A program made the translations under genes and the position numbers. This document shows, piece by piece, positions 16,527 to 31,422 of a DNA stretch of 31,422 nt (position 1 is the first letter of the stretch; the number at the start of each line of letters is the position of its first letter). The DNA comes from a virus, in the IMG/VR virus record IMGVR_UViG_3300049893_002417, positions 1 through 31,422 of that record. One strand, given 5' to 3'. The notes beneath the pieces are model-generated. The model ran no database searches and was not told where the DNA came from. It was given only the letters and a program-made list of their open reading frames with translations.

Positions 16527-17024
16527 ATGATTTCTTCTCTACAACAGCATGAAGTTTTTATCTTTGGCTCAAACGCCAATGGATTTCACGGTGCCGGTTC
16601 TGCCGGGCTTGCTTGTCGTGGAGACGCAAAGAATACATGGCGCAAAGACCCGTGGTTTTTGGAAGCGATGAAATCTCCACCGGGCTCGCCAAAGCGCGTT
16701 GGAAAATGGGCGGTGTATGGGGTGGCGCGAGGATTCCAGTGCGGAAAAGAAGGCAAATCATACGCCATCCAAACAATTGAATTTCCGGGGAAGAAGCGCA
16801 GCACAAGTCTTGCTGAAATCAAGAAGCAGTTGCGCGAGTTAGCGGATTACGCTAAAGTAAACCCACAGTATAATTTTCTCATGACTCCAATCGGAGTCGG
16901 CCTAGCGGGTTGGACTAACTCCGAAATGCGCCAAATCTGGACTGAAATTGTTAACGAAATGCCAAACAACGTAAAGGTGCCAAATAATCTTTACATTGAT
17001 GAGGCTGACCCACTGATGACATGA
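16527..17024 (+). CDS. Macro-like protein, A1S_2505 type
   Basis: This 165-residue protein has HEVFIFGSNANGFHGAGSAGLA at residues 8-29, then GKSYAIQTIEFPGKK and FLMTPIGVGLAGWTNSEM. This order (FxFGSN..G.HGAG, SYAIxT, TxIGxGLAGx) is that of the small phage proteins of the A1S_2505 family, with a macrodomain-like look of loops binding ADP-ribose. I infer the ADP-ribose link from the loop pattern only; activity is not shown by the sequence. GGAG lies a few bases before the ATG, which begins one base after the primase stop. Its own stop overlaps the next start (ATGA, 17021-17024), so it is made together with the nuclease complex. Confidence 0.6.
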   Translation: MISSLQQHEVFIFGSNANGFHGAGSAGLACRGDAKNTWRKDPWFLEAMKSPPGSPKRVGKWAVYGVARGFQCGKEGKSYAIQTIEFPGKKRSTSLAEIKKQLRELADYAKVNPQYNFLMTPIGVGLAGWTNSEMRQIWTEIVNEMPNNVKVPNNLYIDEADPLMT

Positions 17025-20000
17025 TAGACACTTACGAGAAACTACCGACAACGCTGACAAAGGTTGAAGAAATCGTTCACATCGCAGACGTTCACATTCG
17101 TCTAACAAAACGCCACGATGAATACCGGGAGGTGTTTGCCAAGGTCTATGCGGAAATCGGAAAGACTTCGCCCAATACGCTTGTTATCATTGCTGGCGAC
17201 CTCTTCCACAGTAAAGTTGACCTTTCGCCGGAGGCTGTGCAAGTGGCCAGCGAGTTTCTCAAGAATTGCGCGGACCTTCGTCCGACTATCATCATCCCCG
17301 GCAACCACGACTGTTTGCTCACGAATGTAACCCGTCTGGACAGCATTTCTCCAATCATCGAGAATCTTGGCCACGAAAGCCTGTATTATCTCAAGGAAAG
17401 CAAGCTTTACAGTTTTGCAAACCTGCTCTTCAACAACATGAGCATCTTCGAGGATTATACCTCTTTTCTCAAGATGAGCAATGTCACGAAGAAAATTCTC
17501 AGCGAGTTTGACACGAAGATTGCTCTTTATCACGGCGGCGTGTTCGACGCCAAGACGGACATTGGTTACACCATCACGAACAAGAGCATCACGAACAATA
17601 TGTTCGAGGGCCACGACATTGCTATTCTCGGTGACATTCATCTTGCCCAAGACTTGCAGAAGTATGACCCAAGTCTCGACAATCCAATCATTCGCTATGC
17701 CGGTTCGCTATTGCAGCAGAATCACGGCGAGGCGCTACTTGGTCACGGTATTTCACTTTGGAACGTCAAGGACAGAACCTACAAGCACATCGAAATTCCA
17801 AACGACTACGGCTATTTCACCATTGACATTGTTGATGGCAAACTGGTCACAGACATTACCGGAATTCCAAAGAAGCCAAAGCTTCGTGTTCGTTGCAAGG
17901 AAAGCGTTGCAACCGAAGTCAAGAAAGTCATTGCCGAGATTCGCAAAAATTGCGAAATCACGGACCTCATTTACATGCGCGTGGAAGGCGATGGCGCAGC
18001 GAAAGCCGCCGCCGTTCAAGCAGCAGCAAACCTGCAACAAATCACAAACGTTGAGTATCAAAACACACTTATTTCCGGTTGCCTCAAGGCCAAGTATCCA
18101 GAGGTCATGGACGATGCAACCATCGAAGCGGTTCACACCATCAACAAAACGCTGAACATTGATTTGAGTAAAGACGACCAGTCTCGTAATATTCGTTGGC
18201 GTCCAATCAAGTTTGAATTCAGCAACATGTTCAGTTATGGCGAGAATAATACCATCGACTTCACCAAGCTGGAAGACGTTTATGGTCTCTTCGCGGCCAA
18301 CGCCAGCGGCAAGTCTTCATTGATGGACGCACTCTGCTTCACTATCTTCGACAAGAGCGCTCGCGCCTTCAAGGCCAGTCACGTCATTAACTCGCAGAAA
18401 ATGTCTTTCAGTGGTCGCTTCACCTTTGAAATCAACGGCACGACATATGTTATTGAGCGCAAGGGTGCCCGCGACAAGAAAAACAACGTCAAGGTGGATG
18501 TCAATTTCTACAAGATTGAGGAAAATAAGAACGTCAGCTTGAACAGTGAAGCCCGCCGCAGCACGAATGAAATAATCCGCGACTACCTCGGTAGTTATGA
18601 CGAATTTGTGCTAACCTCTCTGGCTCTTCAAGGCAATCAGGGTTCGTTCATTGACATGGGTCAAACCGAACGCAAGGAGTTGCTCTCACAGTTCATTGGT
18701 TTGAACATCTTCGACTCGCTTTATGCAAAGGCATCCGACCATCTAAAGGAAATTACTGGTGCTATCAAGATGTTCAACAAGGAACATAACCACGAGAGGT
18801 TGGAATCGATGAAGGGCGACATCACACTACTCGAATCCAAGCTGGAAGACCTCAAGGTTCAACGTGATAAACACGCCGCGAAGAAGCAGGAAGTGGACAA
18901 TGAAATCAAGGTTCACCAAGAGAAGATTGTCACGCTGGAAAATGTGCCGGTGAGTATCGTCGGCATTCAGAAAGAGAAGCTCACGCTGACCGATAAGATT
19001 TCCGATGCCAAGGTGAACCTGACGCGCATTGACCCTGAATTGACTACCAAAAAGGCCGAACAAGCTGAATTGGCGACCAAGCTTGCCGCGTATGCGACTC
19101 TTGGCCTCAAAGAAAAAGCTGAGAAGCATTCCAGTCTGGTCCGTAACCAAGCTCGTCTTGAAAACGAAATTGAAAAGCTTCGCACGCTCGTTAAAGAAAA
19201 ACTCAAGAAGCTTGAACATCTTGACAAGCACGAGTATGACCCGAACTGCACCTTCTGTTCAAATAACATTTTCGTGAAGGACGCCATTGCCACGCGCGAA
19301 AGCCTAAGCAAAGACAAGCAGGAGGCGCGTGAGCTTTCTGATGCGCTGGCCAACATCAAAATTGAAGTGGGAGAATATGCTCCGTTCGTTTCTCAATATC
19401 AAGACAGTGTTGCGTTGAAAGAACGAGCCAACAACCTCAGTGCGCAGGTTAGCAAGAAGGAACTGGACAAGGTCAATCTCATGACTGGTATTGAGAAGGC
19501 TACGGCTCGTGTTGCCGAAATCGATGCCCAAATCGAACTTTATGAACGCTCCAAGGAAGTCATTGAAGCCAACAAGGCCATCGACGCGGTCATTCAAAAG
19601 CTTACTGTGGAGTCCAACAATCTCGCCGCCAAACTGAAGAGTATCAACAAGGAATATGTTGACGCTTACAGTCGCAAGGTATCTCTGACCGACCAACAGA
19701 AGAATATCGAAGAACAAATCGCCAAGATTGAAGCGTGTGAAGTCGAGGAGGCATCGTATGAATATTATCTCAGCGCAATCGGCAAGGACGGTGTGCCATT
19801 CAAGATTATTTCCGACGCCATGCCCAAGATTGAACAAGAGGCCAACAACATTCTTTCGCAGATTGTTGAATTCACCATGAGCCTTGAAACGGACGGCAAG
19901 AACGTGAATGCTTATATCAAGTATGAGGACCGCAAGTGGCCGCTCGAACTTTGCTCTGGTATGGAAAAATTCGTGGCTGCATTGGCCCTGCGCGTGGCGC

Positions 20001-20230
20001 TCATCAATATCAGCAACCTTCCTCGCGCCAATTTCCTCGTGGTGGACGAAGGTTTTGGCGCTCTGGACGCCTCCAACATGGCGATGGTTCATTCTCTGTT
20101 CGACTATCTCAAGACTAATTTTGAGTTCATCGTTGTAATAAGTCACCTTGACGCCATGCGCGACATGGTGGACAAGCAGCTTGAGATTAAGAAGGAAAAC
20201 GGGTTCAGCAAGATTGATAACACGGTCTAG
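17021..20230 (+). CDS. gp47-gp46: Single-chain Mre11-Rad50 (gp47-gp46 fusion)
   Basis: One unbroken frame of 1069 residues holds both halves of the SbcCD-type nuclease. Residues ~15-330 have the Mre11/SbcD phosphoesterase motifs: D23-V-H25, GDLFH (59-63), GNHD (94-97), YHGG, and GDIHLAQ. From ~395 the Rad50/SbcC ATPase begins: a Walker A AANASGKSS (K431), a long coiled coil with a zinc hook C743-T-F-C746, a signature CSGME near 978, and Walker B FLVVDEGFGALD (D1009, E1010). In T4 these are two genes, 47 (339 residues) and 46 (560 residues). The complex processes DNA ends for recombination-dependent replication. Walker A lacks the usual first Gly (Ala425). Confidence 0.9.
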   Translation: MIDTYEKLPTTLTKVEEIVHIADVHIRLTKRHDEYREVFAKVYAEIGKTSPNTLVIIAGDLFHSKVDLSPEAVQVASEFLKNCADLRPTIIIPGNHDCLLTNVTRLDSISPIIENLGHESLYYLKESKLYSFANLLFNNMSIFEDYTSFLKMSNVTKKILSEFDTKIALYHGGVFDAKTDIGYTITNKSITNNMFEGHDIAILGDIHLAQDLQKYDPSLDNPIIRYAGSLLQQNHGEALLGHGISLWNVKDRTYKHIEIPNDYGYFTIDIVDGKLVTDITGIPKKPKLRVRCKESVATEVKKVIAEIRKNCEITDLIYMRVEGDGAAKAAAVQAAANLQQITNVEYQNTLISGCLKAKYPEVMDDATIEAVHTINKTLNIDLSKDDQSRNIRWRPIKFEFSNMFSYGENNTIDFTKLEDVYGLFAANASGKSSLMDALCFTIFDKSARAFKASHVINSQKMSFSGRFTFEINGTTYVIERKGARDKKNNVKVDVNFYKIEENKNVSLNSEARRSTNEIIRDYLGSYDEFVLTSLALQGNQGSFIDMGQTERKELLSQFIGLNIFDSLYAKASDHLKEITGAIKMFNKEHNHERLESMKGDITLLESKLEDLKVQRDKHAAKKQEVDNEIKVHQEKIVTLENVPVSIVGIQKEKLTLTDKISDAKVNLTRIDPELTTKKAEQAELATKLAAYATLGLKEKAEKHSSLVRNQARLENEIEKLRTLVKEKLKKLEHLDKHEYDPNCTFCSNNIFVKDAIATRESLSKDKQEARELSDALANIKIEVGEYAPFVSQYQDSVALKERANNLSAQVSKKELDKVNLMTGIEKATARVAEIDAQIELYERSKEVIEANKAIDAVIQKLTVESNNLAAKLKSINKEYVDAYSRKVSLTDQQKNIEEQIAKIEACEVEEASYEYYLSAIGKDGVPFKIISDAMPKIEQEANNILSQIVEFTMSLETDGKNVNAYIKYEDRKWPLELCSGMEKFVAALALRVALINISNLPRANFLVVDEGFGALDASNMAMVHSLFDYLKTNFEFIVVISHLDAMRDMVDKQLEIKKENGFSKIDNTV

Positions 20231-25500: not shown

Positions 25501-28302
25501 GCATCTCTTGCTGCAAATTTGACCACGCTCTCGGGAACGGTCACAACCAACAGCAGTTCTGCTGCCACGAGGATGGACACCATTCAATCCAGTGTAACTT
25601 CTGCAAGTTCTTCGCTGGCGGCGAGTATCACAACCACAAACGGAGCGGTCACGACCAACAGCAGTTCGATGGCCACCCGCATGGATACTCTTTCGACCAC
25701 GACCACGACAAACAGTGCGTCGTTGGCCGCATCGATTAGTAGCTCGAATGCAACCCAGACCAATCTATCGTCTTCCTTTGCTGGTAGAATTACGACGGTC
25801 AACACGACAGTAAATACGAACAGTTCGTCGCTCGCATCCAGTATCACGACGGTTCAGGGCAATCTCACAACGGTGAGTTCCTCGTTTGCCACATCGTTCA
25901 CAACGTTGAATTCTTCGTTTACCTCGACATCGTCCTCGTTGAGTGCATCTCTGAGCAGTTTGTCGAACACCGTGACCTCGAACAGCAGTTCGATTGCCAC
26001 TCGCGTTGATGGGGTTGTCACGTCGGTCACTAACAACAGTGCATCGCTCGCCGCTTCCATCACAACGGTTGGCTCGGCCCAAACCACGCTGTCGTCTTCT
26101 CTCGCAGGACGTGTTGACACTCTCACAACGTCCGTAACCAACAACAGTTCTTCGTTGGCCAGCCGCCTCACAACCGAGGAAGTTGCATCCACGAACACCA
26201 GTTCTTCGTTGGCCAGCCGGGTCACGACTCTTAACTCATCCTTCACGAGCACGTCCCAGTCCTTGAGCGCGAGTGTGTCGTCGTTGACCAACACGGTCAC
26301 GACCAACAGCAGTTCCGCTGCCACCCGAATGGATGGATTGCAGACCAGCATCACAAATAACAGTTCTTCGCTGGCTAGCAGCATTACAACAGTTCAGGGA
26401 ACACAAACCACATTGTCCTCTTCATTGGCCGGTCGTGTGGACACTCTGAATTCAACCGTGACGACAAACAGTTCGTCTCTTGCGGCAAGCATTACCACGG
26501 TTCAGGGCACCGTGACTACGAATAGCTCGTCAGCCGCAACTGACATTCGCAATCTCAGTTCATCTTTTGCATCCACGTCCGGTTCCTTGAGTGGCTCGGT
26601 AGCAAGCATCAATTCGTCAATCACGAGTATCAATGGAACCATCTCCACGAACAGTAGTTCCGCCGCCACGCGCATGGATTCTCTGCAAAGCAGCATTACG
26701 AACAACAGTGCGTCTATTGCAGCAAATCTCACCACCACACAAGGGACTCAGACTACTCTTTCGTCCTCGCTGGCTGGTCGCGTTTCGACGGCGGAAACGA
26801 GCATCACCAACAACAGCGCGTCTCTGTCGAGTCGTGTGGCCACAACAGAAACCAGCCTGACGAGCACATCGTCGTCACTGGCTTCTCGTGTCACAACGCT
26901 GAACACATCGTTCACGAGCACTTCCTCGTCGTTGGCAGCAAGTGTAGTTACCTTAACCGCTGCGGATAGCACCAATAGTAGTTCCGCCGCCCTGCGCATG
27001 GATGGTCTTCAGACCAGCATCACGACGAACAGCTCGTCCCTCGCCTCTCGCATTACAACGGTAAGCAGCACCGTGACGAGCAATTCTCAGTCGTTCGCTA
27101 CTACTACAACCACGCTGTCTTCGACTGTCACAACCAATAGTTCTTCCCTTGCATCCTCCATCACTCAAACGGCAACAACGCTTGCGGGTGTTTCTGGTTC
27201 TGTCGCCGCCGCTTGGGGATTGAATGTGGTGGCCGGAAGCCGTGTTGCCGGTATCAAGCTATTGAATAGCGGCAACACCACATCATTCACGGTTCAGGCC
27301 GACCAATTCTATATCGTTGATAGCAGCGGTAACTACGCGACTTCGCCGTTCAGCGTCGTGGGTGGCTCGGTTTACATTAACGATGCCACGATTCAAAATC
27401 TTTCGGTTGGCAAGCTAACAACTGGCACGTTCTCGCAAACGATGAACGTTGGCAACAATGGTGTCATTTACGGTGGAACAATGTCGTCGTATAACAGTGG
27501 TATTGGTTTCTATCTAGGAAACGCCGGTGGTAATCAATACTTCTCGATTGGCAACTCTGGTGCTGGTAACATGCGTTGGGACAGTGTCTCAAACGCACTT
27601 AACATCACCGCGAACATTAACGCCGGTTCGATTAGTGGCGCTTCCATTAGTGGCGGCTCCTTTACGTTGGACGACGACGGTGCAGTGCGCATCGCCCGTT
27701 CCGGCTTCCAAAACACTTACAATTCCGGTGACGATACTCGCACTATTGGGTTCGAGCTTGGGTATTGGACTGAAAAGAACACGCACACTTTCATCGACTT
27801 CCACTCAACATCCGGTGGTGATAACGATGCTCGCATCATTCGAACCGCCGGGCTCAACGGCGAGTTCAAATTCGAACAAAATGGTTCGGGCGAAATGATT
27901 ATGTGGCACTTGGGCACGGGCGGCGGGCTGATGCGATTCAAGAACGAATCATATGTCTTCGTGTCAACGGTGGGTTCTGTCTTCGAACACGGTGTTCAGG
28001 CTTTTGCTTTCAACACAAACTCTTCTCTCCGATACAAGGAAAACGTTCAAACGTTGAAGAACCCACTTCAAATTGTGGAAAGTCTTCGCGGCGTGTCCTT
28101 CAATTGGAAGAGCGGAGACAAGCTCCCAGACACCGGCTTCATCGCTGAAGAAATCAATGAAGTTTTGCCTCACCTCGTTGCCAAAAATAAGGAAGGTCAA
28201 CCAGATTCCGTGGAATACAGCAAGGTTGTTCCTTATTTGGTCGAAGCCATCAAAGAGCTTTCCGCCGAAGTCAAATACTTGAAATCTCAACTGAATGCCT
28301 AA
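22504..28302 (+). CDS. Giant tail fibre with 18-residue repeats and S74 chaperone
   Basis: The 1932-residue chain starts with a phage fibre N-domain: RIRLRRDTAANWTLANP, GEAGAEIDTGNMKVGDG and SWSELDYVG, as in the Mtd-type N-terminus that attaches or caps fibres. Residues ~75-1565 are ~80 tandem 18-residue Ser/Thr/Ala repeats of probable helical coiled coil. Residues ~1568-1640 (NVVAGSRVAGIKLL, FTVQADQFYIVD, VYINDATIQNLSVG) resemble the end of lambda J-like tail tip proteins. A beta-rich tip follows, and the last ~92 residues are an intramolecular chaperone of the peptidase S74 type: NSSLRYKENV (likely self-cleavage at a Ser near 1840) and GFIAEEINEVLP. The chaperone would cut itself off after the fibre trimer folds. 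Confidence 0.85.
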   Translation: MATRIRLRRDTAANWTLANPVLYSGEAGAEIDTGNMKVGDGIRSWSELDYVGSGSGGAVDTSSLENAIRAVVVDLAAFESSSAVISASMAGNINTVYAYSQATSASLSANLSALSSTTYTISSSLASRVTTAAADTSALTATVNANSASAAASITTVSSNLTSVSSSLAGSVTTLFAASASSATRIDGVVSTATTTSSSLASRITSVVAGLNAYTASNDAAVEAVENLAFTTSQSLATFQNSIGVVSGSLTASFQQILDTVAANSASAAASITAVNNSLTSASSSLAATIVSNSASFSSSLSSVSNTVTSNSASAAANIANLYSTQTTQSSSFAARIDTVNSRVTTESSSLASSITTTNATFTNYSSSAAGRFDTITSATTTNSSSLAASITTNANTVTTLSSSLAGRVDTISATTTTNSSSLAASITSVQGTLTSVSSSTATDIRNISASYYASSASFLSSINTTNATVTTNSSSAATRMDSLNSAIVSNSASLSASIATTNTTLTNTSSSLAARVTTLNTTVNTNSSSLASSITTVQGNLTTTSSSLATRVDSLSSTVTTNSSSLAASITTNQGTVTTLSSSLAGRVDTLSSTVTTNSASLAANITSVSVTQTNTSSSLASRVDNLAAGGIAESASLAASISSLQGAYTNSSSSFASRIDTVSSTVTTNSSSLAASITTTNATLTTTSSSLAGRVTTVSASLVTASSSLAANVTNVSNTVISNSSSLASTLTSVSASLLSSSSSLAASIVTTNNTVTSNSSSAASRFDTLTTTVANNSSSLASSITTVQGTVTTNSSSMATVVTALSSSYVATSGSLNTTNANVTSLSNTVTSNSSSAAARMDTIQSTATSNSASLAASITTVGGTQTTLSSSFAGRIDTVSTSVTNNSSSIASRLTTTETSLTTTSSSLASRVSTLSSSFNTTSASLAASVVSLAATDVTNSSSAAVRMDGLQTSITTNSSSLASSITSVSSTQTTLSQSFATRIDTVGSSTLTASASLAANLTTLSGTVTTNSSSAATRMDTIQSSVTSASSSLAASITTTNGAVTTNSSSMATRMDTLSTTTTTNSASLAASISSSNATQTNLSSSFAGRITTVNTTVNTNSSSLASSITTVQGNLTTVSSSFATSFTTLNSSFTSTSSSLSASLSSLSNTVTSNSSSIATRVDGVVTSVTNNSASLAASITTVGSAQTTLSSSLAGRVDTLTTSVTNNSSSLASRLTTEEVASTNTSSSLASRVTTLNSSFTSTSQSLSASVSSLTNTVTTNSSSAATRMDGLQTSITNNSSSLASSITTVQGTQTTLSSSLAGRVDTLNSTVTTNSSSLAASITTVQGTVTTNSSSAATDIRNLSSSFASTSGSLSGSVASINSSITSINGTISTNSSSAATRMDSLQSSITNNSASIAANLTTTQGTQTTLSSSLAGRVSTAETSITNNSASLSSRVATTETSLTSTSSSLASRVTTLNTSFTSTSSSLAASVVTLTAADSTNSSSAALRMDGLQTSITTNSSSLASRITTVSSTVTSNSQSFATTTTTLSSTVTTNSSSLASSITQTATTLAGVSGSVAAAWGLNVVAGSRVAGIKLLNSGNTTSFTVQADQFYIVDSSGNYATSPFSVVGGSVYINDATIQNLSVGKLTTGTFSQTMNVGNNGVIYGGTMSSYNSGIGFYLGNAGGNQYFSIGNSGAGNMRWDSVSNALNITANINAGSISGASISGGSFTLDDDGAVRIARSGFQNTYNSGDDTRTIGFELGYWTEKNTHTFIDFHSTSGGDNDARIIRTAGLNGEFKFEQNGSGEMIMWHLGTGGGLMRFKNESYVFVSTVGSVFEHGVQAFAFNTNSSLRYKENVQTLKNPLQIVESLRGVSFNWKSGDKLPDTGFIAEEINEVLPHLVAKNKEGQPDSVEYSKVVPYLVEAIKELSAEVKYLKSQLNA
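22720..27200 (+). repeat. Tandem 54-bp coding repeats in the tail fibre
   Basis: The translated unit is close to TTNSSSLAASITTVQGTV, with a second variant TTLSSSLAGRVDTLSSTV. The two kinds often alternate, giving a 36-residue super-repeat. About 80 copies are present. At DNA level the copies vary strongly at synonymous positions of Ser, Thr and Ala codons. Occasional inserts break the phase (a 21-residue unit near 24,950; an extra seven residues near 26,620). Confidence 0.85.
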
Positions 28303-28654
28303 CGAATACAGAGTGGGTGGTTACGATTTGCGGAGCATTTTTCGCGCCGCTGGTCCGAGCCTTGGATTCAACACCAATTACAAAATCGGTGACACGGACA
28401 TTCGTTACGTTTTCTGGGGCACAACGAATTCGGGCGACCACATAAATTACGATACCGGATACAAGATTTTTTACATGCGATTTTATTTTTTTCGAGCGGC
28501 GCGCCATTACCAACACCGACCCCCACACCGACCCCCACACCATCACCAACACCAACTCCCACGCCAACCCCCGGCAACTTCACGGTTCAAGCTCTCAATA
28601 GCGACGGTGGTCTTTCCGTATCTATTGATGGTAACAGTTCCGGTCAACCATTAA
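28295..28654 (+). CDS. InlB-repeat adhesin, N-terminal part (frame broken)
   Basis: The frame starts MPNEYRVGGYDLRSIF inside the last codons of the fibre gene (8-nt overlap). It has three degenerate copies of a pattern Y-K/R-I/V...D-L/I-R..F: YRVGGYDLRSIF, YKIGDTDIRYVF and YKIFYMRFYF. After a T-rich stretch near 28486-28492 it becomes His/Pro-rich (HRPPHRPPHHHQHQ), which is the out-of-frame reading of a Pro-Thr linker. The real protein almost certainly continues in the -1 frame and ends at 29403. Read that way the product would have about 369 residues. Only the first ~66 residues of this frame are likely to be authentic. Confidence 0.6.
   Translation: MPNEYRVGGYDLRSIFRAAGPSLGFNTNYKIGDTDIRYVFWGTTNSGDHINYDTGYKIFYMRFYFFRAARHYQHRPPHRPPHHHQHQLPRQPPATSRFKLSIATVVFPYLLMVTVPVNH
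28486..28504 (+). other. Frameshift site: T7 run or GCG repeat in the adhesin gene
   Basis: The zero-frame codons are TAT TTT TTT CGA GCG GCG. T at 28486 plus TTT TTT makes a perfect T TTT TTT slippery heptamer for -1 slippage. The -1 frame then gives S-S-G-A-P-L-P-T-P. Alternatively one base is missing in the GCGGCGCG run (28496-28503), giving R-A-A-A-P-L-P. Programmed shift, mutation and sequencing error all fit. Confidence 0.5.
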
Positions 28655-28677
28655 GCCGCCCGGCTGGCACTTATTCC

Positions 28678-29403
28678 TTGTCGGCAACTCCAAACGGGAG
28701 CTATACATTTAATCAATGGACCGGTGATGTTGGAGGGGTGGCGAACATATATGCCAGCTCAACAACCATCACTATTTCGGCTAATACAGTGGTGACGGCA
28801 ACCTTCTCCTCGCCAACTCAGTATACAGTTCAGGCGCTCAATAACAACGGCGGTGTCGTAGTGTATCTCAATGGCAATGGTTCCGGCCAACCGTTTAGTC
28901 TCGCGGGCGGAACTTATTCTCTGAGCGCAGTCGCTTCCAGTGGCTACAGCTTCACTCAGTGGACAGGAGATGTTGGTGGCGTGGCAAATGTATACGCCAG
29001 TTCAACAACCATCACCATTTCAGCCAACACCGTTGTTCAGGCAAATTTTGCAGCGGTTAGTGTCAGTGACCAGAGTGTTTACGGGACGGTTTCTTCGGGT
29101 TATCGTCTCCGTAATGATGGCGTTGCTCTGTTCGCAACAAATGGAAACTACACCGACATTTCTGGTGAGTGGCTGACTTCCGGCAACGTTGGCGACTTTG
29201 AGGTATTGGCCAGCAACAAGACGGGTGATTCGGTGTCGGGTCAATTCGACACGTGGTTGGGCCTGTCAACAACCAGAACATGGACCCTCTCGGCCCCAAT
29301 CAATCAATTCCGTTCGGCACAATTTACGATAAGCATAAGAAACGCCGCCACTCAAACGGTGCTGGATAGTGCTACAATATATCTGGAAGGTGATAATACT
29401 TGA
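28678..29403 (+). CDS. InlB-repeat adhesin, C-terminal part
   Basis: The frame begins with TTG at 28678, but the same frame is open upstream and encodes APLPTPTPTP from 28501 and then GNFTVQALNSDGG. No ATG or GTG precedes it there, so it must join the previous part by a -1 shift. Two full units of the form YSLSAxxxxxYxFxQWTGDVGGVA...TTITISANTVVxAxF are divergent InlB B-repeats, which form stalks in surface adhesins; a half-unit precedes them. The last ~110 residues (YRLRNDGVALF, GEWLTSGNVGDFEV, TWLGLS, AATQTVLDSATIYLEG) form a domain common at the ends of phage tail proteins. The product probably acts with the giant fibre at the tail tip or side. Confidence 0.7.
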   Translation: MSATPNGSYTFNQWTGDVGGVANIYASSTTITISANTVVTATFSSPTQYTVQALNNNGGVVVYLNGNGSGQPFSLAGGTYSLSAVASSGYSFTQWTGDVGGVANVYASSTTITISANTVVQANFAAVSVSDQSVYGTVSSGYRLRNDGVALFATNGNYTDISGEWLTSGNVGDFEVLASNKTGDSVSGQFDTWLGLSTTRTWTLSAPINQFRSAQFTISIRNAATQTVLDSATIYLEGDNT

Positions 29404-29418
29404 TATTGATTGATATAT

Positions 29419-29595
29419 ATGGTTATGAAAGACCTCACACTACCGGAATTAGAAAAAGTAAAACAGAACTATCTTGGTCAAATGCAAGAGACCAGAAACC
29501 GTCTTATCATGCTCGAAGGTGCATTGCAGGCGGTCGAAGCGCTCATCAAGTTGTCCAAGGGTGAAATAAAGCTAGACCAAGAGAACCCTAGCTAA
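29419..29595 (+). CDS. Small coiled-coil protein
   Basis: This 58-residue protein reads MVMKDLTLPELEKVKQNY and then LGQMQETRNRLIMLEGALQAVEALIKLS, a single amphipathic helix fit for a coiled coil. Starts possible are ATG at 29419 or 29425, or TTG at 29410; none has a Shine-Dalgarno sequence. I prefer 29419, which directly follows AT-rich sequence. Small helical proteins of this type often follow fibre genes in phages, possibly as fibre assembly helpers, but the sequence alone does not prove this. The stop codon TAA overlaps the TATTTATA box of the next gene. Confidence 0.55.
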   Translation: MVMKDLTLPELEKVKQNYLGQMQETRNRLIMLEGALQAVEALIKLSKGEIKLDQENPS

Positions 29596-29606: not shown

Positions 29607-31422
29607 ATGGATATCTCCATCAAGAACCTCAAAAAGTATGTCTTTGAGCCGAAGACGGAGCTTTTGCGCGTTAATCGAGCCAAGGATGTGGTCAGCCAGA
29701 AAATGGTTGTCACGGAAAAGGTTGATGGAACGAAACTGACGCTGGTTTTTACCGAGAAACGTCAGTGGATTGTGGCCTACAAGGGCAGCATTCTTCATGC
29801 GAAGGAATTTGCTCATTTGTCGGCAGCATCAAGAAGTGATATCGACAAGAGTTCTATCGGCATCGGCCAATATTACATTGTCTTCGACCACCTCAAGAAG
29901 CTGGAAGCGATGAAGAACAAGATTCCGTTGAGCACCGAGTTCAGCGTGGAATTTGCTCAAAACAAGGATACCCTCACCAGAACCTATGAGCAAAAAGGCG
30001 GAATGTTCTTGCGCAGTTATGGCAAGGTCCACTATCGTATTGTTGGCGGCGAACTTCACACCAGCGTCATTGGCGAGGAAGTGACCGATTACATCAAGGT
30101 CAAGCAAATGGCCAGTGTGCTGCAACTCTCGTCATTTCCAATATTCCACAATGGAGATTTGAGCAAGGAAAGCATTGAGAAAAATCCTTTACTGGCTCCA
30201 AAAATGAAGAGTGTTGACTGGAATAATCCTCTCGATGTTCTCACCAAGTTCTCGGCAGCGGCACTTTCCATTCCTTCGTCCCTCGGTGGCACCACGGAAG
30301 GTGTGGTGCTCAAACTCAGCAATGGTCAGTTTTTCAAACTCGTGCAGGATGACCAGTATGACAGCGAGGTGCGCGGGGCCAAGAAAGACCAGTATCGTCT
30401 CGACCCTGAAGCGGCTACGGCGTATTTCCAGCAAATTCGTGCGCTGGTTGGCAACATTTTCAAGATTATCGGCACGCAGGGCAAGCGCCCAGAGGATATC
30501 ATCTCTGATTCAAATTTCTATCTGGCCCGCTACGCCAACGAACTGAAGAAATTTTATGCTTCACTCAAGCAGATTGCCGGGGACAAAAAGAACCTTGTGC
30601 AAATCAACGACGACATTCACGATACCATTCGACTCTTGGTCTCAAAGCGCGAACTGCTTGGAACAGAAAGCAAGACTCTTGGTCTTATCCCCATCGCGGG
30701 AAAGCCTCTTCATATCGGACACTGGAAGCTGATTGAAATGGCGGCAAAGCAAAATGATTCGGTAGTGGTTTACACCTCTTCCAGCGACCGCGTGCGCAAG
30801 GGAGAATTTCCAATCAAAGGTGATGACTTCGTTCGTTTTTGGACCGACTTTTTTGTTCCGGTTCTTCCAAAGAACGTGAAGGTCAAGTTTGTGGACTCGC
30901 CAGTTCGCTCCGTCATGCATGAGCTTGGTTGGCTTGAACAAACCTTAACCCAAGACAAAGCCAATGTTCCTGTGGTGAATCTGTATTCCGACGCAGAAGA
31001 CGTGGAGTCCAATTTCAAAGACGAAGACCTGAAAAAGTATCCCAATCTGCTGGCTTTGGATAAAATCAAGAAGGTTGGCGTAAAGCGCACCGACACGGTC
31101 AATGTTAGTGGCACGAAGATGCGCGAGTTCTTGGCCGCTGGCAACAAAGAGGAGTTCCTCAAACATCTCCCACCGGTCAGTGCTGCCGACAAGGAATCGA
31201 TTTGGCAGACGCTCGTTGACAGTGCCGCCGAAGTGGAACGGTTGGAAGAGAATGAAGATTTTGAACAGTTCGTTCGTGATGCCGGTATCAGACTGTTCGA
31301 GGGTGGTTGGAGAACCGCTGATACACAAAAAACCGTGATTACTCCAAAGACCGTGGCTAAGATTGTTTCGGCTTTTGAAGACGAGTTCATCACAGACTTC
31401 AACAGGTTCTCTGGTATTACAC
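29607..31422 (+). CDS. RNA-ligase-like and HIGH-motif nucleotidyltransferase fusion (3' end outside window)
   Basis: The frame runs without a stop to the window edge, giving 605 codons so far. N-terminal part (~1-330): the ligase signature K38-V-D-G-T-K is motif I, the lysine that becomes AMP-linked in RNA/DNA ligases. EGVVLK (231-236) fits motif IV and QFFK (K244) motif V. C-terminal part (~360-520): LIPIAGKPLHIGHWKLIEMAA has the HIGH motif (H369-I-G-H372) of NMNAT/cytidylyltransferase-like enzymes, and NVSGTKMREFL (S501) is the matching ISGTxxR motif that binds triphosphate. The ~100 residues between them and after are helical. The protein may join or repair RNA and make a nucleotide product such as NAD. 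Substrates are not predictable from this. Confidence 0.75.
   Translation, partial: MDISIKNLKKYVFEPKTELLRVNRAKDVVSQKMVVTEKVDGTKLTLVFTEKRQWIVAYKGSILHAKEFAHLSAASRSDIDKSSIGIGQYYIVFDHLKKLEAMKNKIPLSTEFSVEFAQNKDTLTRTYEQKGGMFLRSYGKVHYRIVGGELHTSVIGEEVTDYIKVKQMASVLQLSSFPIFHNGDLSKESIEKNPLLAPKMKSVDWNNPLDVLTKFSAAALSIPSSLGGTTEGVVLKLSNGQFFKLVQDDQYDSEVRGAKKDQYRLDPEAATAYFQQIRALVGNIFKIIGTQGKRPEDIISDSNFYLARYANELKKFYASLKQIAGDKKNLVQINDDIHDTIRLLVSKRELLGTESKTLGLIPIAGKPLHIGHWKLIEMAAKQNDSVVVYTSSSDRVRKGEFPIKGDDFVRFWTDFFVPVLPKNVKVKFVDSPVRSVMHELGWLEQTLTQDKANVPVVNLYSDAEDVESNFKDEDLKKYPNLLALDKIKKVGVKRTDTVNVSGTKMREFLAAGNKEEFLKHLPPVSAADKESIWQTLVDSAAEVERLEENEDFEQFVRDAGIRLFEGGWRTADTQKTVITPKTVAKIVSAFEDEFITDFNRFSGIT

Follow-up and report, generated by a model that had tools for sequence, protein, structure and literature searches.

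A phage RNA-ligase domain fused to a HIGH-superfamily nucleotidyltransferase domain: front half of a putative four-domain RNA-repair protein

According to the RNA-repair section of PMC7824862, which summarises Burroughs and Aravind (2016), the syntax of phage RNA repair comprises an RNA ligase, a Pol-beta family nucleotidyltransferase (NTase) named RlaP, a polynucleotide kinase and a phosphatase. For phage T4, a second system of relevance here, internal proteins are known to carry capsid-targeting peptides of 10-19 residues, which gp21 cleaves off behind L/I-x-E (PMC9026906). A ligase domain fused to a HIGH-superfamily nucleotidyltransferase domain is already present in the databases, although without a name. 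The Campylobacter phages CP220 and CP21 (CPT_0026 and CP21_156) and the Vibrio phages SRILMA and phiKT1024 encode proteins (phrog_27149) which share both parts with the protein analysed here over about 500 aa at about 30% identity, which keep all ligase motifs and which are annotated just as hypothetical or as carrying a nucleotidyltransferase domain. They differ from it in their partly degenerate HIGH motif, in the missing first Pol-beta domain (Pol-beta-1) and in a second one (Pol-beta-2) that is encoded by a separate gene (phrog_19290; CPT_0100 in CP220). The preliminary description of the locus had called a ligase-NMNAT fusion unfamiliar in phages; the fusion is real but, as these phages demonstrate, not unique.

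The stretch of DNA analysed (the window) is a virus contig of 31,422 nucleotides (31.4 kb; IMG/VR record IMGVR_UViG_3300049893_002417). It carries T4-type baseplate wedge genes as well as genes for a RuvC-like resolvase, a primase and an SbcCD-type protein, and the carrier phage was therefore considered T4-like. Within the SbcCD-type protein (1069 aa, 17021-20230) SbcD-like and SbcC-like parts follow each other in one chain (phrog_100, then phrog_77), whereas T4 gp47 and gp46 are separate proteins. Large ORFs resembling tail or tail-fibre genes precede the ligase-HIGH gene. A single tail-tip or fibre gene, split by a frameshift at about 28.48-28.68 kb, seems to underlie two successive ORFs at 28295-29403, the first of which ends in H/P-rich low-complexity sequence and the second of which has a TTG start mid-protein. 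The ligase-HIGH frame itself (29607-31421, plus strand) starts with ATG, codes for 605 aa and is free of stops up to the contig end. A true protein length of 605 aa was rejected since the relatives continue; judged from the close relatives, about 700 aa are missing. By sequence comparison the window protein is thus the front half of a large and hitherto undescribed protein, which in complete relatives bears two further Pol-beta-like domains.

Domain organisation of the window protein and its complete relatives

The uninterrupted frame had initially been read as containing ligase motifs I, IV and V followed by HIGH and SGTKMR, with the key residues of both halves intact, and both observations were borne out (Table 1). 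By fold and motifs, the N-terminal domain is an Rnl2-type RNA-ligase domain with predicted sealing activity. The Pfam family RNA_ligase (PF09414) was matched at residues 32-238 (E 1.7e-5) with 25.5 bits, 1.5 bits under the gathering cut-off of 27, and phrog_27149 covers residues 1-393 (E 1e-30). An AlphaFold model built with 67 sequences reached a pLDDT of 92.5 and a pTM of 0.86. In a model-based fold comparison its ligase domain aligned with RNA ligase 6vt9 over 186 residues (rmsd 3.6), and K38 is located at the end of strand 33-38, as the nucleotidyltransferase fold requires. None of the 67 sequences deviates at eight ligase residues (K38, D40, G41, K43, E115, E231, G232 and K244), which excludes a chance origin of the motifs; altogether 15 residues of this domain are invariant.

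Residues 355-544 are, again by fold and motifs, a HIGH-superfamily nucleotidyltransferase domain. Pfam returned weak HIGH-superfamily matches alone for this region (residues 351-397), and the profile of the 67 relatives matched solved PPAT/NMNAT structures with an E value of 2e-8. The modelled domain aligned with NadD 4s1o over 152 residues (rmsd 3.0), and its fold fits NadD, PPAT and NMNAT equally well. The helix that begins with the HIGH residues (370-382) comes after strand 357-362. A K38 outside a nucleotidyltransferase pocket, or HIGH residues away from a helix start, would have spoken against the fusion as it was originally proposed; the model shows neither.

Table 1. Features of the ligase-HIGH gene and the ORF preceding it (window positions; the arrow marks a predicted cut).
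Feature	Position	Strand	Remarks
Small upstream ORF, 61 aa from TTG	29410..29595	+	Not assigned to the repair system; no PHROG match
Ligase-HIGH gene, 5' part (605 aa)	29607..31422	+	Cut by contig end; complete relatives about 1306 aa with ligase, HIGH, Pol-beta-1 and Pol-beta-2
RNA-ligase nucleotidyltransferase domain, residues 1-256	29607..30374	+	T4 Rnl2/Naegleria Rnl/Trl1 fold; Pfam RNA_ligase; VIA Z 12.6 to 6vt9; Foldseek 2hvr, 9r3w
Ligase motif I, K38-V-D-G	29718..29729	+	K, D, G invariant in 67/67 sequences
E115, probable ligase motif III acid (FSVEF)	29949..29951	+	Invariant 67/67; on strand 110-117 in model
Ligase motif IV, E231-G-V-V	30297..30308	+	E and G invariant
Ligase motif V, K244	30336..30338	+	Invariant
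Helical linker domain, residues 257-354	30375..30668	+	All-helical in model; Y273, D336 invariant
HIGH-superfamily nucleotidyltransferase domain, residues 355-544	30669..31238	+	NadD/PPAT/NMNAT fold; VIA Z 12.9 to 4s1o; profile E 2e-8 to PPAT 3nd5
HIGH motif, residues 369-372	30711..30722	+	Opens helix 370-382 in model; final H invariant 67/67
SGTKMR, residues 501-506, second HIGH-superfamily motif (SxTxxR)	31107..31124	+	Opens helix 502-511
LFE↓GGW, prohead-protease-like site (L/I-x-E, then G), residue 565	31293..31304	+	Border to Pol-beta-1; T4 gp21 rule, PMC9026906
First 40 residues of Pol-beta-1 domain (GGWRTADTQKTVITP...)	31302..31421	+	Aligned with L006, whose complete domain has the Pol-beta fold

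A scan of viral contigs with the single window protein as query yielded no relative; with an alignment of five sequences 54 loci were obtained, and further scans added more. Among 84,980 bacterial and archaeal genomes no relative was confirmed, a weak negative as the search used one degenerate pattern only. The close relatives (50-69% identity) mostly comprise 1297-1314 aa from a conserved MDIS start (up to 1350 aa in some if an earlier start codon is counted), with two segments bearing Pol-beta signatures behind the HIGH domain. Pol-beta-1 (motifs GS, GDIDI and QVDL) corresponds to palm and thumb of the DNA polymerases beta, mu and lambda, with a Z of 10.2 to pol beta in a model of the C-terminal half of relative L006 (pLDDT 81.5). 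Pol-beta-2 (phrog_19290; motifs FNGSS, FGDVDV and QIDFE) belongs to the Pol-beta NTase superfamily by its motifs, and the residues G, S, D, D and D (GS, DxD and a third D) are invariant in 26 diverse members. Compared by sequence with the PDB, Pol-beta-2 gave no match, and the list of fold matches for the C-terminal half is filled by those of Pol-beta-1. Profiles of the two domains align co-linearly but insignificantly, and paralogy is therefore not claimed. The RlaP model PF10127 matched none of the 26 members at E values up to 10; true RlaP is encoded elsewhere in three of ten related genomes.

The architecture varies among the relatives. Four of them (L025, L028, L114 and L117; 954-981 aa) are without the first Pol-beta domain. 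At another locus (L059:5737-7937) two tandem Pol-beta gene paralogues lie ahead of the ligase-HIGH gene, an arrangement that recalls the pair of Pol-beta domains in the fused protein. Pol-beta and ligase-HIGH proteins with long C-terminal additions of no clear Pfam family (882 and 986 aa in total) were found at L186:6857-9505 and L188:9242-12202.

Gene company of ligase-HIGH proteins

In the distant relatives Pol-beta-2 is a separate gene, which is located directly before the ligase-HIGH gene on the same strand with a gap of -13 to +3 nt (29 distinct contigs). Both genes also occur together in cultured phages (15 Campylobacter and six Vibrio records), with about 65 kb between them in CP220. 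Other candidates for the Pol-beta partner were rejected, namely CPT_0027 of CP220 (annotated as "possible virion structural protein"), the partner being CPT_0100, and Vibrio ORFs of 264 and 377 aa, the partner in these phages being an ORF of 384 aa. In Vibrio phages (L002:1247-3087) the Pol-beta and ligase-HIGH genes are preceded, at a distance of a few kb, by genes for an annotated tRNA nucleotidyltransferase and a hydrolase.

An HMM census of gene order, run over all fetched loci, revealed two further components in some clusters, a P-loop kinase (AAA_33/Zeta/PNK-like), whose Walker A motif is intact, and a calcineurin-like phosphatase (Metallophos, E 2.5e-8). Operons composed of ligase, kinase, phosphatase and NTase were found in five relatives (L086, L082, L033, L053 and L172), and this gene set thus matches the published phage RNA-repair syntax as given in the RNA-repair section of PMC7824862. 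The order is variable: Pol-beta, ligase, kinase and phosphatase without gaps in L086; phosphatase, Pol-beta, kinase and ligase in L033 and L053; ligase and phosphatase followed by a kinase fused to Pol-beta in L172. In L031 the kinase is fused to the ligase. Near window-type genes neither kinase nor phosphatase was found, the window itself ending inside the gene.

Stenotrophomonas phage BUCT608 (L231:1390-4507) contains an unfused Pol-beta gene (E 6e-18) close to a T4 baseplate gene. Two of its ORFs jointly match one 552-aa family (phrog_12709), possibly owing to a frameshift, and the second has ligase-like motifs, a call based on motifs. A stand-alone HIGH protein with intact HxGH is encoded in the same cluster. 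An unfused HIGH gene thus keeps the same gene company, which argues that the HIGH domain belongs to the repair system.

Prohead-protease-type sites and putative capsid-targeting peptides

Many of the separate ligase, Pol-beta and kinase proteins start with peptides of the types MKRFSDLIFE↓AAN, MDFLRYLNE↓GKE, MKSFNQFITENKILNE↓GGN or MRFIQYLIE↓STI. The pattern L/I/M-x-E↓[AGS] is present in 25 of 53 non-redundant ligase N-termini as compared with 114 of 879 background ORFs (13%; p 7e-9, a value which shared ancestry makes optimistic). Of 42 separate relatives whose MDIS-type core could be located, 28 begin with a putative targeting peptide and its site. The N-termini of these tagged relatives suggest that the proteins are packed in the phage head and injected with the DNA. 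The gp21 protease family (PF03420) was detected in nine of ten related records, as was gp23. In a 185-kb relative of L022 a segment of about 16 kb holds the fused gene and the portal, protease and capsid genes in succession and on the same strand, and gp23 of this fused-type phage contains LIDE↓A in its N-terminal region. The corresponding region of gp23 in L223 and L224 reads AKQLIDE↓A, and a fused repair protein reads AKQLIRE...LLNE↓S ahead of its last domain.

The window protein starts with MDISIKN and has no N-terminal targeting peptide. We infer its packaging from internal sites alone, a weaker case than that of the tagged relatives. Besides the site at the border to Pol-beta-1, where E↓GG is invariant in the fused relatives and the third residue ahead of the cut is L or F, these proteins possess an LxE↓S site before Pol-beta-2, whose variants include LLNE, LLTE, LLME, ILVE and MLIE↓S.

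There is a fair chance, although we do not favour this view, that all of these proteins are ordinary cytoplasmic enzymes, that nothing is packaged and that the L/I-x-E motifs are due to chance or linker sequence. The motif is short and occurs in 13-22% of background N-termini, many members have no N-terminal tag (among the separate proteins several, including those of Vibrio and L106-L109), and the packaging of the family is deduced from sequence signals. Moreover, the 11 virion bands that PMC2853527 reports for CP220 include neither the ligase-HIGH nor the Pol-beta protein. Chance, however, does not readily account for the position of the sites: of the Pol-beta proteins, 19 have their N-terminal extension intact, and each of these 19 has hxE immediately ahead of GGN, at the very point where 30 untagged ones begin with MGGN. 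Likewise, the fused proteins keep L and E before Pol-beta-2 while x varies, and the distant L114/L117 group shows LNE↓S again. Furthermore, a homologous family of cyanophage "cytidyltransferases" (phrog_395/3041), matched by hundreds of cyanophage records and with HIGH domains resembling that of the window, has the same N-terminus: all six sampled members (L232, L233 and L235-L238) start with MKKFSAFLTE↓A or similar. One member, the cytidylyltransferase of cyanophage S-CREM2, was detected in virions by mass spectrometry, with possible contamination mentioned by the authors (PMC10665884).

Proposed RNA end repair and comparison with known systems

The reading we prefer, with a probability of roughly 0.6, is that the window encodes the front half of a four-domain RNA-repair enzyme which is probably capsid-targeted, trimmed by gp21 and injected. 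Its substrate would most likely be tRNA or other RNA cut by host antiviral ribonucleases; this choice of substrate, like each reaction step and the order of steps proposed here, is drawn from fold similarity and gene company. The neighbouring P-loop kinase and calcineurin-like phosphatase of the relatives would produce ligatable ends (5'-P and 3'-OH), and the Pol-beta domains, which are absent from the window but present in complete relatives, would restore nucleotides lost at the 3' end ahead of sealing. The Rnl2-like domain would then transfer AMP from ATP onto K38 and on to the 5'-phosphate end, and seal the break. The HIGH domain is presumed to be a nucleotidyltransferase which joins a nucleotide to a terminal phosphate; our guess is that this phosphate belongs to RNA or to a cofactor of the same pathway. 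Cut at L/I-x-E sites by a gp21-type prohead protease and injected with the DNA, such proteins would put repair capacity in place ahead of phage gene expression.

Conservation differs between the two halves. The HIGH domain has a single invariant residue (H372), and its motif is incomplete in 42 of the 67 sequences. It might therefore be a worn-out enzyme that is retained as a structural or RNA-binding module, leaving ligase and Pol-beta alone active, which we consider doubtful: [HT]xGH and SxTxxR are complete in the remaining 25 sequences, among them the whole window-type group, and the stand-alone HIGH protein of BUCT608 has its motif intact. As the ligase residues are kept throughout, ligation is regarded as the constant function, and the activity of the HIGH domain may vary among groups.

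That Pol-beta-1 has its closest fold matches (Z about 10) among DNA polymerases, namely beta, mu and lambda, is a point against RNA as substrate and makes DNA repair the main rival. In this case a Pol-beta-like gap filler, kinase, phosphatase and nick ligase would act on nicked or gapped phage DNA, as in base-excision or end-joining repair, and DNA ends would suit kinase and phosphatase just as well. Such a complex is nevertheless unlikely, as the matches of the ligase domain are RNA ligases (Rnl2, Naegleria Rnl and Trl1) and the domain behind it is helical instead of having the OB fold of DNA ligases; besides, the carriers are T4-like and some encode a DNA ligase of their own (CPT_0033 in CP220).

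Least probable of all is a polyvalent protein with two unrelated anti-defence activities, the ligase mending RNA and the HIGH domain restoring NAD+ as an NMN adenylyltransferase after attack by host NADases: in fold and in profile the HIGH domain matches not just PPAT but also NadD, NadM and NadR, window-type members have the full motif and HIGH enzymes of phage NAD+ salvage are known (passages of PMC9503650), but a motif so often incomplete would be odd in an NAD+-supplying enzyme, Pfam matched no Nudix domain in the window protein or in the full-length relatives, and neither NadV nor Nudix nor an NadR kinase was noticed next to the ligase-HIGH gene, although the same passages report NadV in every NadM phage. 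Of the early suggestion that the two halves repair attack on tRNA and on NAD, the RNA part is hence supported and the NAD part is not, the neighbourhood of Pol-beta NTase, kinase and phosphatase pointing to one RNA end-repair pathway. The other early suggestion, a nucleotide made by the HIGH domain for use by the ligase, is conceivable.

Extending the preferred reading of RNA repair, we tentatively propose, as a speculation of rather low probability, that T4-like phages inject a virion-packaged RNA-repair kit, either as separate tagged enzymes or as a four-enzyme polyprotein which the prohead protease cuts in the head into its single enzymes, so that RNA cleaved by first-response host nucleases is mended before phage genes are read. 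The HIGH domain would thereby perform nucleotidyl transfer onto an RNA end phosphate, unlike any known HIGH enzyme.

In the literature searched, which did not include the review of Burroughs and Aravind (2016) itself, no description of the ligase-HIGH fusion was found; the HIGH domain is absent from the RNA-repair section of PMC7824862, and passages of the viral NAD survey PMC9503650 mention no ligase fusion. Neither did the searchable literature contain the four-domain form, the new Pol-beta family, the company of kinase and phosphatase or the link to capsid targeting. The analysis offers a coherent role for "hypothetical" proteins of cultured Campylobacter and Vibrio phages and of many uncultured T4-like phages, and extends the known components of RNA repair by a new Pol-beta family and a HIGH nucleotidyltransferase.

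With T4 RNA ligase 2 and Naegleria Rnl (PF09414) the window protein shares the nucleotidyltransferase fold, motifs I, IV and V and a helical C-terminal extension. It is unlike them in its fusion to HIGH and Pol-beta domains, in its score just under the Pfam cut-off and in a motif V of the form K-x-x-Q or K-x-Q-Q. RlaP-associated systems have the same functional syntax; here, however, the Pol-beta family does not match PF10127, and there is an extra HIGH NTase, none being listed in the RNA-repair section of PMC7824862. The bacterial Pnkp-Hen1 and Pnkp1-Rnl-Hen1 systems (compare PMC4411300) also unite kinase, calcineurin-type phosphatase and ligase in one system, whereas in the relatives described here these are separate small genes, Pol-beta and HIGH domains are present, and no Hen1 methyltransferase was noticed in passing. 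The phage NMNATs NatV/NadM and NadR combine HIGH with Nudix or with a kinase; window-type proteins share the HIGH domain without Nudix or NR kinase.

The cyanophage "cytidyltransferases" represent a large phage group with similar HIGH domains and the same capsid-targeting-like N-terminus, those examined being without a ligase, and the present reading offers a reason for their occurrence in virions. T4 Alt and the internal proteins have the same L/I-x-E maturation sites and N-terminal targeting peptides; they are unrelated proteins whose packaging is known, whereas here it is predicted. If the prediction is true, RNA repair belongs, like T4 Alt and IPI, to the weapons that enter the host together with the DNA, and this would account for the survival of phages in the face of nucleases that act before their own ligase can be made.
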